Assembly: GCA_030044375.1 (NCBI GenBank)
Contig: JASHVX010000055.1
Span: 1 to 9,125 of the forward strand
Direction: 5' to 3'
From: Nitrososphaerales archaeon
Lineage (GTDB): Archaea > Thermoproteota > Nitrososphaeria > Nitrososphaerales > Gagatemarchaeaceae
Length of the DNA stretch: 9,125 nucleotides
The notes under the pieces were generated by a model. That model worked only from the letters and a program-made list of their open reading frames with translations. It was not told where the DNA came from and made no database searches. Positions 1,706 through 9,125 of the stretch are shown here, one piece after another; within the stretch, counting starts at the first letter, position 1; the number at the start of each line of letters is the position of its first letter. The position numbers and the translations under genes are program-made.

Positions 1706-4700
1706 TCACGAGGCCTTGGCTATCTTGCCGAACACGTAAGGAAGGACGCCCCCGCTCTCGACGTACCTCATTTCCGTGGCATTGTCGATCCGACAAAGCA
1801 CTCTGAACCTCTTCTCGCCTCCTTCCCCCCTCGCGACCACGTCCAGGGTCTGACGCGGCCCGTCCATCTGGGATACTCCCAGGATGTCGAAGCTCTCTGT
1901 TCCTATCAGCCCGAGCTTGGCCACGCTCTCTCCTTCGGTAAACTGGAGCGGGAGGACCCCCATCGCCACGAGGTTGCTCCTGTGGATCCTTTCGAAGTCT
2001 TCGGCTATCACAGCCCTGACACCCAGGAGTTTAGGAGCCTTGGCCGCCCAGTCCCTCGAACTCCCCATCCCGTACTGCTTCCCCGCAAGAACGATCAGTG
2101 GCGTCCCCTCCTTGACGTAGGCGACTGACGCGTCGTAGATTGACATCTCATTCCCCGAGGGTATGTGTAGTGTGAATCCGCCCTCCTTCTTGGCCAGAAG
2201 ATTGTGGAGCCTTATGTTGCTGAAGCCTCCTCGGACCATTACCTCGTCGTTTCCACGTCTTGCTCCGAAGGAGCTGAACTGGAGCATCTGGACGCCGTGT
2301 TCGAGAAGATAGATACCGGCGGGGCCATCCACCGCTATTGTTCCCGCTGGGGATATGTGGTCAGTGGTGACCTTGTCCTCGAGGAGTGCGAGGGCGCGCG
2401 CTCCTAGGATGTCGGCCTTGGCGCTCGCCGACTGGTCGGCGTCGAACCACGGAGGGCGCCTGACATAGGTAGACTGGGCCTCCCAGTGGAACAGGGGGTC
2501 AGAGTAGGAGGCGAGAGACTCCCAGCGGGAGTCTCCCTTGGCGGCGCCGGCGTAGCGCGAGGCGTAGAGGTCAGGAGTGAGCGAGCTTTGCACCGACTCC
2601 TTGATCTCGTCCAGCTTGGGCCATACGTCCCTGAGAAACACCTGCCCGCCCCGCGGCGACTCGCCGAGCGGCGTGCGCTCGAAGTCAAAGTCGATGTTCC
2701 CCGCCAGGGCGTACGCGACCACCAGCATAGGGGACATCAGGAAGGAGCCCTTGACCAGCGGGTGTATCCTGCCGTCGAAGTTCCTGTTGCCGGAAAGCAC
2801 GGCCACTGCGTAGGTGCCGTCCTTCTTGACCGTCGCCTCCACCTCCGGCGAAAGAGGACCACTGTTGCCAATGCAGTTGTGCACTGCCACCGTCCCGGCG
2901 ACGAAGGCGTGGATGTCATCAACGGCCAGGTCGTAGACGTGTCTCCTCCCAGCATCCCTCCGGGCCACAACCTTCAGGCTGAAGGCCGGAAGAGACGTCG
3001 ACTCCTCTTCGACGGCACATCGCCCTGACTCAGACGAGCCGCCCTCGCGTGGGGAAGAGAACCAGTCCAGCACCCCCATCTCACGGAAGAGCCTCGTAGG
3101 CGACGGAAAATCGCAACCGTCTCGGCGCATCGGCCTGAAGTGGCGGCCGGCTTCGTTCGGCAGGCGCGAGAACCTGTCATGTCCTTCGAGGAGGGCGTAG
3201 TGGGGCGACACGACCGCTGGCAGGGACGCCTCCTCCTCGTGACCCAGCAACGAGGCGACAACAGCCTGTCGAGCCTGAGGGAAGGTCATGCTGGGGAAGC
3301 TTGCCTTGGCCTCTCTGATCGCAGATCCCATCCACAGCCGTTGTTGGTCGACCCCCCTGACCAGGCGCCAGTAGACAGCCGCGGAAGACGCCCGCGCCAT
3401 CTTGTCTACGCAGTATCGAAAGCCCACTCGCTCCACGAAAGAGAGACCATCGGGCAATTCCAACCTGACCTCGACCCTCGGGATGCCGTCCTGCGCTGGA
3501 GGATAGGTCGACTCGCCCCTCCTCGTAGGATAGTTGCGGACCTTGGCCCCATTGGTGGCCACCCCGCAGCGGTCGAGCAGGCGAACCAGCTCGCGCATAA
3601 CGTCCTCTGCCGCCGGCAGGTCCTCTGGAACCGTGCTGAAGGAGAACGCCGGCGGCTCCAGACCAGCTTCGTGCTCCTCGCTGCCCCAGCGGTGCAAGGA
3701 TGGGGAGTGCCCATCGGCGCCGAAAGCGCCTCCCAAGAACTCTCTGACCACGGCGACCGGGCAGGAGTCCTCCTTAACGAACAGAGGAATGGCCGGCGGC
3801 TGCAGCATGCGCCTGCCCACCTGCACCCCAGCGAGTGAGGCGATGGCTCTGGTGAGCGACACCGGGAGAACGATCGACCGTTTGCGTTCGTCGTACCGTT
3901 TGGCCGCAGGCCTGACTCCGGTCAGGAGCTCCAGGTCTGCCAGGACCATCTCGCGGTCCATCGCTTGGCCGACGTTCATCCTCCCCTGACCGTAGACGCT
4001 GATCGAACCGTCGTTCAGGAAATGCCCGACCAGGCGCGCGAAGGCGAGCATCCTGGCCCGCTGAGAAGGAGAGTCCATGCTGAATAAGGCCTCGCCTGCT
4101 CTGAGGACGTAGCCTTCCTCGTCCGCCCCGGGAGCGTTCCGCGGTCCCTCTATTCCTACGGTGACGCGGTCCTCTCCAGGAGTGAGCTCATCCGCCCTGG
4201 CCCACCTCCCGTCGGAGCGCAGTATCATGTGGTCGGGCGTGCAGACAAGGGAGCGACCATCCTCAAGCACCAACCTGACGCAGTCGCGAGCCCCCCTGTC
4301 CATGAGCTGCGACTGGACGGCGACTCGCAGGGCCGCACTGCCGACCGGGCCGAAGAGGCGGGCTCCCCCGCCCGACGGCAGGCTTTCGATGGGGCGGGAC
4401 GTACCGTCAGCCAGGAGGACCGGCGTTCCAGCCGCGATGCATGTAGTGCACCCGTAGCCCACGAGGGAGAATCCGAGTTGGTCCAGATAGCGCGAAAGGC
4501 CTGCCTTCTGCAGATAGTCAGTGACCACGGTGGAGCCAGGAGCGAAGCTCGGCTTGACCCAGGGCTTCACCCTAAGGCCCATCTCTACGGCCTTCTTCGC
4601 CACGAGCGCTGCGCCCACCATGACCGTGGGGTTGGAGGTGTTGGTGCAGCTCGTTATCGCACTGATGACAACGGCCCCGTCTCTTAGTCGCCGGCCGTCA

Positions 4701-5896
4701 GACCCCGAGGACGTGCCCGCCAGCAGCTGCTGACCGCCGCCGGCAGTAACTCCCACAGCGTGAGGGGCCGCCCCCTTCTCTCCGAGCAGTTGCCTGGCGA
4801 AGGTCGGCATGGTCCGGAGAGGCCTGCGCTCTTCCGGGTTGCGAGGGCCTGCGACAGAAGGCTCGACGTCGTCGAGGTCGACCACGACGACCTCCGAGTA
4901 CCTGGCCTCCTTCTCCGAGTCGGCGAAAATCCCGACGAGTTTGGCGTATCTTTTCACGAAGTCCACGTGCTCAAGCGGCCTGGCAGTGCCTACGAGGTAG
5001 TCTAACGTGGCTTGGTCGGGGGGGCAGAAACCCACTGTGGCCCCGTACTCCGGGGACATGTTCCCGAGGGTCGCCCTGTCCTGCGCCGTCAGCCTGCGGT
5101 ATCCTTCGCCGAAGTACTCGACGAACGAGCCCACGACGTTCTTGCCTCTCAACTTCTCCGTCACAGTGAGCACCAGGTCCGTGGGCGTGACACCCTCCCT
5201 GAGGTCGCCTACCAGTTTGACGCCGAAGACCTTCGGTATCGGCATGTAGTACGGCTCCCCCAACATCACAGCTTCGGCTTCGATGCCCCCTACTCCCCAA
5301 CCGAGGACGCCGATACCGTTCACCATTGTCGTGTGGGAGTCGGTGCCGATTAGAGTGTCCGGGAACGCGAGCAGCTCGCCCCCTTCCGACGACGTCGTGA
5401 CTACCTTCGAGAGGTATTCGAGGTTGAACTGGTGGCAGATCCCCTTGCCCGGAGGGAACACTCTGAGCCCCTCAAAAGAGGACTGGGCCCACTTGAGCAG
5501 CGCGTATCTCTCAGAATTGCGCCCGTACTCCTTCTCGAGGTTGACGCCGAAAGCGAGCTCGTTCCCCCACGCATCGACCTGGATGGAATGGTCGATCACG
5601 AGGTCGATAGGGACCTTCGAGTTGACGCGGGAAGGGCTCAGTCCCGCCTTGCTGGCGGCGTCCCTCATCCCGGCCAGGTCGACTATCAGGGGGACGCCGG
5701 TATAGTCCTGGAGCAGGACCCGGTAAGGCATGAAAGGAGTCTCCGAGTCGACGGTCGCGGGCCACCGCGCCAACGCATGCGCAGCTTCCAGGGCGCCGTG
5801 CACCTTGCCTGCGTTCCTCGCGGCATTCTCCAGAAGAACAAGTATCGACGCGGGCATTCGCTCGACGTCATATCCAAGCTCCCTGAGCTTCATCAC
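1706..5896 (-). CDS. acnA: Aconitate hydratase A (AcnA/IRP1 type) precursor interrupted by an intein
   Basis: Aconitase interconverts citrate and isocitrate through cis-aconitate in the cytoplasm, using a [4Fe-4S] cluster, as a citric acid cycle step. The precursor is 1396 residues. Removing the 522-residue intein (486-1007) leaves 874, close to the roughly 890 usual for AcnA. The N-extein carries LLQDYTGVP (61-69), VIDHS (100-104), GTDSHTT (184-190), NMSPEYGAT (279-287) and the first cluster ligand Cys417 in SAITSCTNTSNP. Cys483 in GYGCTT is the second ligand; Cys1008 in CIGNSGPL, first residue of the C-extein, is the third. The swivel domain has DHISPAG (1179-1185), GSSRDWAAK (1278-1286) and FERIHRSNL (1301-1309). 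The start used is GTG at 5896, with ATG next. Aconitase-like sequence continues upstream in frame, so the true start may be CTG at 5968, just after the transporter stop. Without splicing the cluster site should be broken. Confidence 0.95.
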   Translation of the reverse strand: MMKLRELGYDVERMPASILVLLENAARNAGKVHGALEAAHALARWPATVDSETPFMPYRVLLQDYTGVPLIVDLAGMRDAASKAGLSPSRVNSKVPIDLVIDHSIQVDAWGNELAFGVNLEKEYGRNSERYALLKWAQSSFEGLRVFPPGKGICHQFNLEYLSKVVTTSSEGGELLAFPDTLIGTDSHTTMVNGIGVLGWGVGGIEAEAVMLGEPYYMPIPKVFGVKLVGDLREGVTPTDLVLTVTEKLRGKNVVGSFVEYFGEGYRRLTAQDRATLGNMSPEYGATVGFCPPDQATLDYLVGTARPLEHVDFVKRYAKLVGIFADSEKEARYSEVVVVDLDDVEPSVAGPRNPEERRPLRTMPTFARQLLGEKGAAPHAVGVTAGGGQQLLAGTSSGSDGRRLRDGAVVISAITSCTNTSNPTVMVGAALVAKKAVEMGLRVKPWVKPSFAPGSTVVTDYLQKAGLSRYLDQLGFSLVGYGCTTCIAAGTPVLLADGTSRPIESLPSGGGARLFGPVGSAALRVAVQSQLMDRGARDCVRLVLEDGRSLVCTPDHMILRSDGRWARADELTPGEDRVTVGIEGPRNAPGADEEGYVLRAGEALFSMDSPSQRARMLAFARLVGHFLNDGSISVYGQGRMNVGQAMDREMVLADLELLTGVRPAAKRYDERKRSIVLPVSLTRAIASLAGVQVGRRMLQPPAIPLFVKEDSCPVAVVREFLGGAFGADGHSPSLHRWGSEEHEAGLEPPAFSFSTVPEDLPAAEDVMRELVRLLDRCGVATNGAKVRNYPTRRGESTYPPAQDGIPRVEVRLELPDGLSFVERVGFRYCVDKMARASSAAVYWRLVRGVDQQRLWMGSAIREAKASFPSMTFPQARQAVVASLLGHEEEASLPAVVSPHYALLEGHDRFSRLPNEAGRHFRPMRRDGCDFPSPTRLFREMGVLDWFSSPREGGSSESGRCAVEEESTSLPAFSLKVVARRDAGRRHVYDLAVDDIHAFVAGTVAVHNCIGNSGPLSPEVEATVKKDGTYAVAVLSGNRNFDGRIHPLVKGSFLMSPMLVVAYALAGNIDFDFERTPLGESPRGGQVFLRDVWPKLDEIKESVQSSLTPDLYASRYAGAAKGDSRWESLASYSDPLFHWEAQSTYVRRPPWFDADQSASAKADILGARALALLEDKVTTDHISPAGTIAVDGPAGIYLLEHGVQMLQFSSFGARRGNDEVMVRGGFSNIRLHNLLAKKEGGFTLHIPSGNEMSIYDASVAYVKEGTPLIVLAGKQYGMGSSRDWAAKAPKLLGVRAVIAEDFERIHRSNLVAMGVLPLQFTEGESVAKLGLIGTESFDILGVSQMDGPRQTLDVVARGEGGEKRFRVLCRIDNATEMRYVESGGVLPYVFGKIAKAS
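2870..2881 (-). other. C-terminal splice junction; +1 Cys is an Fe-S ligand
   Basis: The codons are CAC AAC | TGC ATT: intein His521 and Asn522, then Cys1008 and Ile1009 of the C-extein. The +1 cysteine is the nucleophile for transesterification and, by alignment with AcnA, the third ligand of the [4Fe-4S] cluster in the mature enzyme. Confidence 0.9.
2948..3454 (-). other. Unassigned C-terminal segment of the intein between endonuclease core and block F
   Basis: Intein residues about 330-498 follow the endonuclease core and precede splicing block F. I cannot match them to a standard intein block. The segment includes a helix-rich stretch with Gln and Arg (TFPQARQAVVASLLG, about 386-400), then a part rich in His, Arg and aromatic residues (HYALLEGHDRFSRLP), and ends in a Ser/Glu-rich linker near 462-481. 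It could be an extra DNA-recognition domain for homing or simply an elongated linker. Confidence 0.5.
3542..4054 (-). other. LAGLIDADG (DOD) endonuclease core of the intein
   Basis: This covers intein residues about 130-300. Block C is ARLVGHFLNDGSI with acidic Asp144. Block D is probably PPAIPLFV near 215-222, matching the IP-containing element that precedes the second motif in this family. Block E is REFLGGAFGADGH with acidic Asp243. Block H resembles EDVMRELVRLLDRCGV near 279-294. In this family the two aspartates bind the metal ions that cut the intein-free allele of the host gene, and repair then copies the intein in. Both aspartates are present, so an active enzyme is plausible; activity itself cannot be read from sequence. 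Confidence 0.85.
4439..4450 (-). other. N-terminal splice junction inside the Fe-S ligand motif
   Basis: Read on the minus strand the codons are TGC ACT ACA | TGC: cluster ligand Cys483, Thr484, Thr485, then intein Cys1 (precursor residue 486). The extein cysteine is at position -3 relative to the splice site. In unspliced protein Cys1 sits exactly where the third cluster ligand would be, so the precursor shows a mimic of the normal CTTC sequence. Confidence 0.9.
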
Positions 5897-5969: not shown

Positions 5970-7445
5970 TCACTCCGCCGTGAGTTCGGCGCCTCTGCCT
6001 CTATTTGAGTTTGAGTCGGGCGACGGGCCGTCTACAGGGACCCTCCTCCCGCGGAGCACCGAGGGGATTATCGCGACCGTGTTCACGCAGGCCAAGACGA
6101 TGTAGACGAAGTGCAGACCCCCCGCGAACGCTGTCCTGTCGGCCGAAGACAGCGACGACGGGTTGACAGACGAGATGACGGAGGTGATGAGCGAATAGGG
6201 GACGCGGAGCGTCATCAGCAGTATCACTGCGTTCACGCTTATCGTGTATCCCACGTTGAAGAATGTCGCGCGGAGAGCCGAGCCGACCGCCCTTTCCTTC
6301 GCAGGGACGGCACCCATCACCGAGCTGATGTTGGGCGAGGCGAAGAGGCCTGTGCCGACTCCGCCCAAGACCAGAAACAGCGCTATCAGGGCGTATGGCG
6401 CGTTGACCGCAGACTGCGAGAAGAGGAACAGCGAGACAGAGATCACGGCTATGCCGGTGGTGGTGAAGGGGATCACGCCGTACTTGTCCGAGAAGTGCCC
6501 GCTCAGGGGCCCTGCGACGAGGAACCCGGCGTCGAATGGCAGCAGTGCGATCCCGGCCTGGAGAGGCGACATGCCGTCCACGAGCTGGAGGTACAGGCTG
6601 ATCACCAGGAGGAAGGCTCCCCAGGCGATCGAATTGATCATCTGCGCAAGGCAGCCTCCGGTGAACTCCCTGATCCTCAGGAGCTTCAGGTCGAGGAGAG
6701 GATACTTGTTCCTCCTCTCCTCCCTGACGAAGGCGAGCAGGGAGGCCGCGGAGAGCGCGGCGAGGGCGACCGCGAGGTAGTAGTCGACGAATCCGTAGGC
6801 CGCGAAGGTCAGAGCCAGGAGCAGAGAGGTGATGAACACTGTGAAGGTGGCGAGGCCGACCCAGTCCATGGGGTCGGGATGCTCCGGCTTCCCTATCTCC
6901 CGCAGGCGTCTGTACGCCCAGACAGTGCCGAAGATGCCGATGGGGACGTTGATGTAGAAGAGGTACCTCCAGTCGAGCACAGCCAGGATGAGGCCGCTCA
7001 GCGTGAGGCCGCCGACCGCCCCTGCCCTGAAGGCGATCTGGTTGATCCCCAGCGCCGTCCCGAGCTGACCGCTGGGGAAGGCGTCGGTGATGATCGCCGC
7101 GCTGTTGGCGAACAGGGCTGCCGACCCCAGGCCTTGGAAGATCCTCGCGGCTATGAAGGCGTCCGGGGTGCCGGTCGACGCCGTAAGGAAGGAGCCTACG
7201 GTGAAGATCGTGAACCCGGTCGCATAGACCTTGACCCGGCCGAACATGTCGCTGATCCGGCCGATGAACAGCAGGGCGATCGTGCTCCCTATTGTGTAGG
7301 CTTGGGTGAACCAAATCGCCTGCTCGGCGTCCGCGTGCAGGGCGGCCGCGACCGTGGGCAGACCCACTATGACGATCCTGCCGTCGATCCCGCTCATCAG
7401 GACGCCGACGGTGGTAACGGTCAGAACGGTCCACTTGTACTGCAA
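5970..7445 (-). CDS. Major facilitator superfamily transporter, DHA2 (14-helix, EmrB/QacA-like) family
   Basis: This is an integral membrane drug:proton antiporter-type carrier of 491 residues, the usual DHA2 length. About 14 hydrophobic segments are visible, near 5-27, 43-62, 73-91, 97-118, 132-155, 160-180, 195-215, 218-240, 267-290, 297-315, 326-345, 350-370, 395-415 and 444-464. Loop 2-3 has motif A (GRISDMFGRVK, 62-72). Helix 1 carries SGIDGRIVIVGLP, corresponding to the DHA2 signature LDxTIVNVALP. WRYLFYINVPIG (159-170) is a second strong family signature. The start is TTG at 7445, the only ATG, GTG or TTG after an in-frame TGA; a GGAAGGA lies about 14 bases upstream. The gene ends within bases of acnA and is probably co-transcribed. 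Family members export drugs, dyes or metabolites; the substrate here cannot be told from sequence, and neighbouring aconitase only weakly hints at organic acids. Confidence 0.92.
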   Translation of the reverse strand: MQYKWTVLTVTTVGVLMSGIDGRIVIVGLPTVAAALHADAEQAIWFTQAYTIGSTIALLFIGRISDMFGRVKVYATGFTIFTVGSFLTASTGTPDAFIAARIFQGLGSAALFANSAAIITDAFPSGQLGTALGINQIAFRAGAVGGLTLSGLILAVLDWRYLFYINVPIGIFGTVWAYRRLREIGKPEHPDPMDWVGLATFTVFITSLLLALTFAAYGFVDYYLAVALAALSAASLLAFVREERRNKYPLLDLKLLRIREFTGGCLAQMINSIAWGAFLLVISLYLQLVDGMSPLQAGIALLPFDAGFLVAGPLSGHFSDKYGVIPFTTTGIAVISVSLFLFSQSAVNAPYALIALFLVLGGVGTGLFASPNISSVMGAVPAKERAVGSALRATFFNVGYTISVNAVILLMTLRVPYSLITSVISSVNPSSLSSADRTAFAGGLHFVYIVLACVNTVAIIPSVLRGRRVPVDGPSPDSNSNRGRGAELTAE

Positions 7446-7549: not shown

Positions 7550-9125
7550 TTGCCCCGAACCCCGAACGCGCTCATCAAAGAGAAGAGCCCCTATCTCCTC
7601 GAGCACGCCTACAATCCTGTGGACTGGAACTCGTGGAACGACGCGGCGCTCAGGAAGGCGAAGAACGATGGGAAGCCGGTCCTCCTTAGCATAGGGTACT
7701 CGAGCTGCCACTGGTGCCACCAGATGGCCAAGGAGTCCTTCGAGGACGAAGCCACGGCCGCCCTGATCAACAAGAGCTTCATCCCGATCAAGGTCGACAG
7801 GGAAGAGAGGCCCGAGGTCGACGCCTACTACATGAAGGCCGTGCAGGCCATGACCGGGTCCGGAGGGTGGCCGCTCACGGTCTTCCTGACGCCCGACCTG
7901 AAGCCATTCTATGGCGGGACCTACTTCCCGCCCGAGCCGAGGAACGGCATGCCCAGCTTCAGGCAGGTGTTGGAGTTCGTGGCGACCCTGTGGAAGGACA
8001 GGAGGGCCGAGGTCATGGGAGACTCGGGGCGCGTCGTCGCGGCGATACTGGAAGAGGGAAGGCAGGGCGCTGCGGGGCAGCTAGGTCCCGCCGTGCTAGA
8101 CGACGGGTGCGCCTCCCTTCTGTCGTCGTTCGACCAGGCCCATGGGGGGTTCGGCGTGGCGCCCAAGTTCCCGTTGCCCCTGGCATCGAGCTATCTGTTG
8201 CGATACCACTACAGGACAGGCAAGGCTCTGGCGCTGTCAGGCGTAGTGAAGACCCTGGACGAGATCCAGGCAGGAGGGATCCGCGACCACCTGGGAGGCG
8301 GCTTCCACAGGTATTCGACCGACAGGGTGTGGCTCGTGCCTCACTTCGAGAAGATGCTCTATGACAACGCGCAGCTTGCCAGGCTGTATGCCGAGGCGTA
8401 CCAGGTCACGGGCGACGCCGCGTACGCAGAGACGGCCAAGGAGACGTTCGCTTGGATGTTGCATGAGATGAGGGACGAGGGCGGAGCCTTCTACTCGTCA
8501 CAGGACGCCGACACGGGTGAGGGCGAGGGAGCATACTACACCTGGACCCCAGCCGAGGTCAGAGAGGTGCTCGGGGAGGCAGACGCCTCGACCTTCTCCA
8601 CGGAGTATGGGGTCACCACCAAGGGTAACTTCGAGGGCCGCTCGATCCTGCATAAGGCGGTCGCCCCCTCGTCCCCGGAACGGGCGACGATGAAGGAGCT
8701 GAAGGGTCGGCTGTACGCCCGTAGGCTGAGGAGGCCGAGGCCCGCGGTCGACACCAAGGTCCTGACCTCCTGGAACGGCCTCGCCATATCGGCCCTTGCC
8801 TTTGGAGGGGCGGCGCTCGGCGACGGGGGCCTGGTGGCTGCCGCGGAAAGCGCCGCCGGCTTCATCCTAGAGCACAGCGTCAAGGGAGGCCGGCTGCTCC
8901 GAAGGTACGCTGGAGGCGAGGCCGCCATCGACGGGACGCTCGAGGACTACTCATTCCTGGTCCAGGGCCTGGTAGACCTCTTCGAGGCGTCGGGGACGCC
9001 CGGCTTGCTCTCGGAGGCTCTCCGTCTCACCGAGACCATGCTGGGCGACTTCGAGGACAAAGAGAGGGGCGGCTTCTACCTCACCGCGGGCGACGTCCCG
9101 GCGAGGCTGAAGGAAGGATACGACG
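7550..9125 (+). CDS. DUF255/YyaL-type protein: thioredoxin-fold domain plus (alpha/alpha)6-barrel-like domain (partial, C-terminus off window)
   Basis: This belongs to the widespread YyaL/SPATA20-like family (thioredoxin domain-containing protein). Its biochemical role is not well established. The visible 525 codons are roughly three quarters of the usual length near 680-700. The N-terminal thioredoxin-like domain opens with [21 protein letters not shown] and has the Cys53-His-Trp-Cys56 motif in [11 protein letters not shown], then [22 protein letters not shown] and GGTYFPP. The following part resembles N-acylglucosamine 2-epimerase/cellobiose epimerase barrels, with [56 protein letters not shown] and [13 protein letters not shown]. 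The start is TTG at 7550, which fits the family's short leader; an in-frame TGA at 7520 excludes anything much longer. No frameshift is seen. The gene is divergent from the transporter and nothing links it functionally to acnA. Confidence 0.93.

Follow-up and report, generated by a model that had tools for sequence, protein, structure and literature searches.

Class 1 inteins with a LAGLIDADG homing endonuclease, such as TliVMA, PI-SceI, and PI-PfuI, have a HINT fold with Cys1, a TxxH motif, and a terminal His-Asn followed by Cys+1; they carry two LAGLIDADG motifs and are patchily distributed at sites with exact empty counterparts. The same features are shared by an insert that interrupts the aconitase A gene (acnA) of a Nitrososphaerales archaeon on contig JASHVX010000055.1 (C107 of its bin). 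The window analyzed here is this whole contig of 9125 bases, and the bin comprises 943,725 bases in 166 contigs and is 72% complete. What sets the insert apart from the known class 1 inteins is its host, aconitase A (AcnA), a central metabolic enzyme predicted to hold a [4Fe-4S] cluster. We put the probability that the 522-residue insert is a class 1 intein, likely to excise itself and leave a working aconitase as predicted, at about 0.92.

MoaA, which hosts an intein in Pyrococcus abyssi, is a radical SAM protein. A native Cys-3/Cys1 disulfide is reported to be able to control splicing of the P. abyssi MoaA intein, and a Cys1/Cys+1 disulfide to block the Pab PolII intein (PMC3922620, PMC10663303); the SufB intein is described as oxidation-sensitive (PMC8529194). 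The MoaA intein resembles the AcnA intein in having cysteines at positions -3 and 1 and an oxygen-sensitive host, but disulfide control, reported there, would apply to AcnA by analogy. Mycobacterial SufB is also an iron-sulfur host, but it is a cluster-assembly protein, unlike aconitase.

In kind, the insert is a known element, namely a LAGLIDADG-bearing class 1 intein. Its aconitase host, its location at the predicted cluster site, and its spread over two domains seem to be new. Among the open-licence papers listed, none described an aconitase intein, the stem 'aconit' did not occur in the intein reviews that were text-searched, and no model of an intein-containing aconitase was present among the best 25 of 33 NCBIfam matches or in a further NCBIfam scan. 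An initial annotation of the window, made from the letters alone, had called the insertion site possibly rare or undescribed; the second word agrees with the open-licence papers listed, whereas the first does not hold, as all of the best 120 protein hits carry the intein there. All 40 loci recovered from genome contigs are titled as metagenome-assembled genomes, so a host that occurs often may be absent from intein catalogues that draw largely on cultured species.

The acnA insert and its domains

The acnA reading frame covers positions 1706-5896 of the minus strand and encodes 1396 amino acids counted from the listed GTG. The real start probably lies upstream of this GTG, perhaps by 20-25 codons, because the reading frame continues open in that direction and the proteins of relatives are longer at this end by about 20-25 residues. 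Within the frame, positions 2876-4441 translate to 522 residues without a stop (CIAAG...AVHN), while the plus strand over the same interval contains stops. A full-length intein had been proposed at exactly these coordinates, with Cys first, His-Asn last, and Cys next, and each of these particulars was confirmed; the minus-strand location of acnA and the intein had gone unstated. The junctions read GYGCTT/CIAAG and AVHN/CIGNSG, and joining the flanks restores the uninterrupted motif of relatives, giving GYGCTTCIGNSG as the ligated junction peptide of the predicted splice product. The insertion is thus in frame and has an exact empty allele in relatives, as expected of an intein.

PF00330 and PF00694 (Pfam) matched the precursor in two blocks flanking the insert. 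The N-extein (4442-5896, minus), supported by PF00330, TIGR01341, and the IRP1 alignment described below, carries the aconitase family domain and ends in GYGCTT. The C-extein (1706-2875, minus, stop included) starts with CIGNSG and carries the aconitase C-terminal domain, supported by PF00694 and the same alignment. With TIGR01341 (AcnA, NCBIfam), the precursor scored 1171.2 bits against a cut-off of 945, which places the host in AcnA. Computed from the listed GTG, the masses are 56.8 kDa for the intein and 94.2 kDa for the ligated product.

The intein, together with 14 N-side and 12 C-side extein residues, was folded with AlphaFold2. The model (predicted template modeling score 0.89) showed a HINT splicing domain and an I-DmoI-like endonuclease. 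The splicing residues of a class 1 intein are all in place. Cys1, the predicted splicing nucleophile (4439-4441, minus), was found in 117/117 parsed database hits and in all 36 rows of the alignment; block B reads TPDH at residues 68-71 within the N-terminal part of the HINT domain (4112-4441, minus); and the C-terminal blocks F and G, assigned from sequence, supply Asp504, His511, and His521-Asn522 (2876-2983, minus), followed by Cys+1. The LAGLIDADG domain spans intein residues ~128-341 (3419-4060, minus) and has two LAGLIDADG helices with both catalytic aspartates, Asp144 and Asp243. It is followed, according to the secondary structure, by a helical extension at residues ~345-475 (3017-3409, minus), to which the Pfam scan assigned no family; this extension is possibly DNA-binding. 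All 36 inteins share the internal cysteines 67, 227, and 292.

Some profile results count against this assignment. PF14890 and TIGR01445 remained below their cut-offs (30.9 vs 35.8 bits and 21.7 vs 24.5 bits, respectively), and TIGR01443 exceeded its cut-off of 15.6 bits only with extein flanks (20.6 bits; 15.3 bits without them). The intein sequence is far from all solved inteins (best phmmer E value 1e-5), and its splicing domain is nearest to the Mtu RecA and cyanobacterial DnaB mini-inteins.

The predicted iron-sulfur site, probable splicing, and a possible redox gate

When the precursor was aligned to human IRP1 (2b3x) with phmmer, the match fell into two segments that abut at the intein junction. 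Cys417, Cys483, and Cys1008 aligned to IRP1 cysteines, as expected of the three cluster ligands of AcnA. Cys437, Cys503, and Cys506 of IRP1 are its [4Fe-4S] ligands, and residue 436 of the 2b3x chain is Cys437. The predicted first ligand, Cys417 (4646-4648, minus), aligned to that chain residue. The predicted second ligand is Cys483, or Cys-3 (4448-4450, minus), and the predicted third is Cys1008, or Cys+1 (2873-2875, minus), which is also the predicted splicing acceptor; both are invariant in 36/36 rows. Cys1008 and Cys486 (intein Cys1) aligned to one and the same IRP1 cysteine. The intein therefore likely sits between two predicted cluster-ligand cysteines, in line with the earlier proposal that it splits the iron-sulfur CxxC motif. 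That proposal also held that the precursor would lack a normal cluster site. In the precursor, the third predicted ligand does lie 522 residues away, but the statement overlooked a look-alike CxxC pair, Cys-3-Thr-Thr-Cys1-Ile, which has the same spacing as the CTTC ligand pair.

Judging from the conserved residues, Cys1 would form a thioester with Thr-1, Cys+1 would attack it, and Asn522 would cyclize with the assistance of His521, after which the freed exteins would close the CTT-C bond. Splicing would in this way create the CTTC ligand pair and, for that reason, should precede normal cluster assembly; splicing, redox state, and cluster assembly would converge on one bond. In three of the 36 inteins (L048, L056, and L057), the penultimate His is replaced by Ser (SN/C).

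The AcnA intein likely splices and is functional, as suggested by its sequence and by the single-contig relative G005, which shows no other aconitase. Based on PF00330, the interrupted acnA is the only AcnA in 6/9 carriers of the genus (G000, G005, G012, G016, G023, and G027), and none of the nine showed an acnA with an empty site. Where the only AcnA found is the interrupted one, protein splicing would be needed for a working form. The ratio of nonsynonymous to synonymous substitution rates (dN/dS) of the intein was 0.13-0.18 in the five of nine pairs with computable dS and was low in the extein too, for which dS could be computed in all but one of nine pairs; several dS values exceeded 1, near saturation, which weakens this argument.

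A splicing-dead intein or a relic gene, with another aconitase doing the work, had been named at the outset as a reading that would overturn the proposal. Its room is provided by incomplete genomes, including the window's own bin, by a LeuC-like PF00330 protein that the window's genome also holds (C125), and by G018, G020, and G026, in which acnA lies on overlapping contig-end pieces that may represent one split gene or hide a second copy. LeuC-like PF00330 proteins were seen in G000 and G020. With all splicing residues intact, low dN/dS on both sides of the junctions, the interrupted gene standing alone wherever the carriers of the genus could be judged, G005 included, and no empty copy beside it, we consider this reading very improbable. 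An assembly or binning artefact has next to no chance of being correct. The window is a whole short contig of a fragmented bin, and the related locus L072 looks as if an intein-bearing allele had been joined to an empty one, but the same arrangement recurs in other assemblies, among them contigs of 1.50 Mb (G005, a single-contig genome of the same genus) and 5.07 Mb (G551), which refutes an artefact for the family. At L072 (2492-6621), the frame changes within the intein of an AcnA, after which the extein appears once more with an empty site; this locus is likely an assembly chimera of two alleles of one population. Of 11 bacterial genomes, one (G452) shows a further AcnA-like frame, and additional PF00330 proteins occur in several, so that bacteria may depend less on the interrupted acnA.

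The C-3xxC1 arrangement of the MoaA intein is present in 36/36 AcnA inteins, and the look-alike pair could oxidize to a disulfide that blocks splicing. By analogy with MoaA, aconitase might then mature only under reducing conditions, a tentative proposal that we hold to be somewhat improbable. Conservation of Cys-3 and Cys1 proves nothing here, because the enzyme fixes Cys-3, the splicing chemistry fixes Cys1, and inteins prefer conserved motifs. Cys1 is, moreover, the usual first residue of inteins. A further step would be that the intein is kept as a useful redox or iron sensor, with aconitase left unspliced in oxidative stress and freed in reducing conditions. The invariant cysteine pair, the disulfide effects reported for the MoaA (Cys-3/Cys1) and Pab PolII (Cys1/Cys+1) inteins (PMC3922620, PMC10663303), and the reported oxidation sensitivity of the SufB intein (PMC8529194) are consistent with such a role, as is the NF038136 intein, which apparently also lies ahead of the final cysteine in a CxxC cluster motif. 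A selfish element would, however, equally explain the patchy presence (9 of the 27 acnA-bearing genomes of the genus) and the 35/36 intact-looking endonucleases, and close relatives live without the AcnA intein. Retention as a sensor is therefore unlikely in our view. Since the splice junction forms half of the predicted ligand pair, this system allows a direct test of whether inteins regulate their hosts, which is disputed.

Of the NCBIfam intein models, NF038136, which describes the Rv2578c-family radical SAM intein, scored highest for the window. Its score rose from 36.6 to 44.8 bits when extein flanks (14 residues on the N side, 12 on the C side) were included, and the match then starts at Gly-4 and takes in the extein GCTT. 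The two hosts have unrelated folds; only about the first 92 intein residues align in the best stretch of the window, and the comparison was made via the model. In 6/6 intein-free loci inspected, out of 67 genomes with a match, none above the family cut-off, NF038136 resumed, at position 335, on the last Cys of CxxxCxxC. We infer from this point of resumption that the intein ends at that Cys, and this second intein thus apparently sits inside a CxxC cluster-ligand pair. A special kinship of the AcnA intein to the radical SAM intein was discarded, as several models match the 36-member group about equally (best E values: NF038136, 6.9e-16, 36/36 members; RtcB NF038162, 6.7e-17, 35/36; DnaB PRK07773, 1.1e-14, 36; RecA, 1.3e-11, 36), and only the shared kind of site was retained. 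It is unlikely, though conceivable, that the AcnA, Rv2578c-type radical SAM, and MoaA inteins form one class located between [4Fe-4S] CxxC cysteines, in which Cys1 replaces the missing ligand and pairs with Cys-3 as a redox or iron gate. If true, the host would be ligated and receive its cluster only in a cell able to preserve that cluster, and in the case of aconitase, protein splicing would govern entry into the citric acid cycle across several microbial phyla.

Distribution and probable movement of the AcnA intein

At E ≤ 1e-3, the protein search gave 890 hits, of which the best 120, the window's own included, were listed; this list favors intein carriers because the query region is mostly intein. 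Of these 120, 117 parsed with Cys first, His-Asn last, and CIGNSGP next, and the remaining three have the intein at the same site with GLGC replacing GYGC/GFGC. Together with the 40 loci from the genome-contig scan, they supply the insertions at the exact site in other AcnA that the initial annotation had suggested looking for. Two relatives are labeled 'aconitase A/intein/homing endonuclease' in the JGI annotation, so the insertion has already been picked up automatically.

The 40 loci are titled Nitrososphaerales/Thaumarchaeota, Chloroflexi, Ktedonobacteria, Gamma- and Deltaproteobacteria, Polyangiaceae, Omnitrophota, and Eisenbacteria; at phylum level, the titles cover Nitrososphaerota, Chloroflexota, Pseudomonadota, Myxococcota, Omnitrophota, and Eiseniibacteriota. 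Protein-database names add Pyrinomonadaceae and Steroidobacteraceae. These labels are depositors' titles and not fully reliable, as illustrated by L042, titled Proteobacteria and yet drawn in the phylum of genome G451. In the genus of the window, the intein was found in 9/31 genomes, and acnA in 27/31, of which nine have it interrupted and 18 have an empty site at exactly this point. Genomes G004 and G006 of the genus each have two acnA-type copies in separate places, all free of an intein by their match coordinates. In wider samples, the intein occurred in 16/400 genomes of the phylum of G451 and 7/47 of the phylum of G456 (one of the seven a partial match), but was scarce in the archaeal phylum (2/398) and in the phylum of G459 (1/398, namely the center genome itself).

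Both junctions could be parsed in 32 of the 40 loci. Only the N-side junction was found in L059, L066, L074, and L075; L061 and L072 have broken frames; L067 has no parsable frame; and in L069 the C-terminal pattern was not found, though the intein match spans 522 residues. Trees were built from 36 rows, with L036-L039 omitted as duplicates of same-genus loci and with partial exteins in five rows (L010, L011, L049, L051, and L071). Within groups, median intein/extein distance ratios were above 1 in the genus (1.66), Gammaproteobacteria/SZAS (1.87), one Chloroflexi group (1.91), and Eisenbacteria (2.37), and the single pair L040-L043 gave 3.85. Between the genus and bacteria, the median ratio was 0.53 (range 0.35-1.03; 0.38 against the Chloroflexi locus L041), and three comparisons between bacterial groups gave 0.65-0.80. 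The intein thus outpaces its host gene within these groups yet differs less across domains, which suggests from sequence distances that it was transferred between domains, most likely after the host genes had split.

Several observations weaken the case for transfer, and the topology tests are mixed. In Omnitrophota (median 0.67) and in the rows from Ktedonobacteria (0.78), the intein is no faster than the extein, and the deep ratios could be lowered in part because the faster intein is more strongly saturated. The intein data rejected one extein clade (approximately unbiased test, p-AU 6e-5), but the extein data rejected neither the intein grouping {L001, L005, L010} (p-AU 0.225) nor the joining of all archaeal rows (p-AU 0.079), and the case for transfer consequently leans mainly on the distance ratios. 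An intein swap inside the genus, considered because the window joins L005 and L010 in the intein tree (100/100) and not in the extein tree, was dropped on the former value. The latter value likewise fell short of deciding whether two Nitrososphaerales AcnA lineages, L040 and L043 (archaeal by record title only) versus the window's genus, share one intein, and this reading was set aside too.

The AcnA intein is likely a widely traveling mobile element. Its endonuclease is predicted to cut intein-free acnA at the same conserved site, whereupon the intein would be copied in; such homing would explain the single exact site, the patchy presence, and the movement between archaea and bacteria. In at least 90% of the 45 interrupted rows compared, which include some duplicates, the target DNA reads TG.AC.A..|TGCAT.GG.AA, and one endonuclease could therefore meet many hosts. 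The endonuclease looks intact in 35/36 intein copies. The L073 intein (443 aa) has lost both LAGLIDADG aspartates and retains the splicing residues, a form that the homing cycle predicts. A phage or plasmid carrier was sought and not found at the sensitivity used: tblastn of the intein matched four phage and eight plasmid records, none covering 80% and all below 40% identity, and the single IMG/VR match was partial (37% over 90 residues).

Other apparent inteins and neighboring genes

Further apparent inteins were noted in the same set of genomes. On contig C47 of the window's own genome, a minus-strand MCM helicase-like gene (L003) has an intein ending HN/CIDEFDKM, and on its contig C164 a V-type ATPase subunit A-like gene (L004, 796-3345) has one between GTGK and TVTLHS. 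Elsewhere, an archaeal peptide chain release factor 1-like frame shows two apparent inteins (L097, G031 C78:2500-7500), and an Mrp/Nbp35-like P-loop ATPase shows one at PPG/TGD (L098, G009 C20:58500-63500). In the window, acnA is adjoined by genes for an EmrB-like major facilitator superfamily transporter (5970-7445, minus) and a DUF255 thioredoxin-domain protein (7550-9124, plus). At the other end (3-1505, minus) lies a possible secreted or surface protein, whose long Thr/Ser-rich repeat tail runs off the contig.
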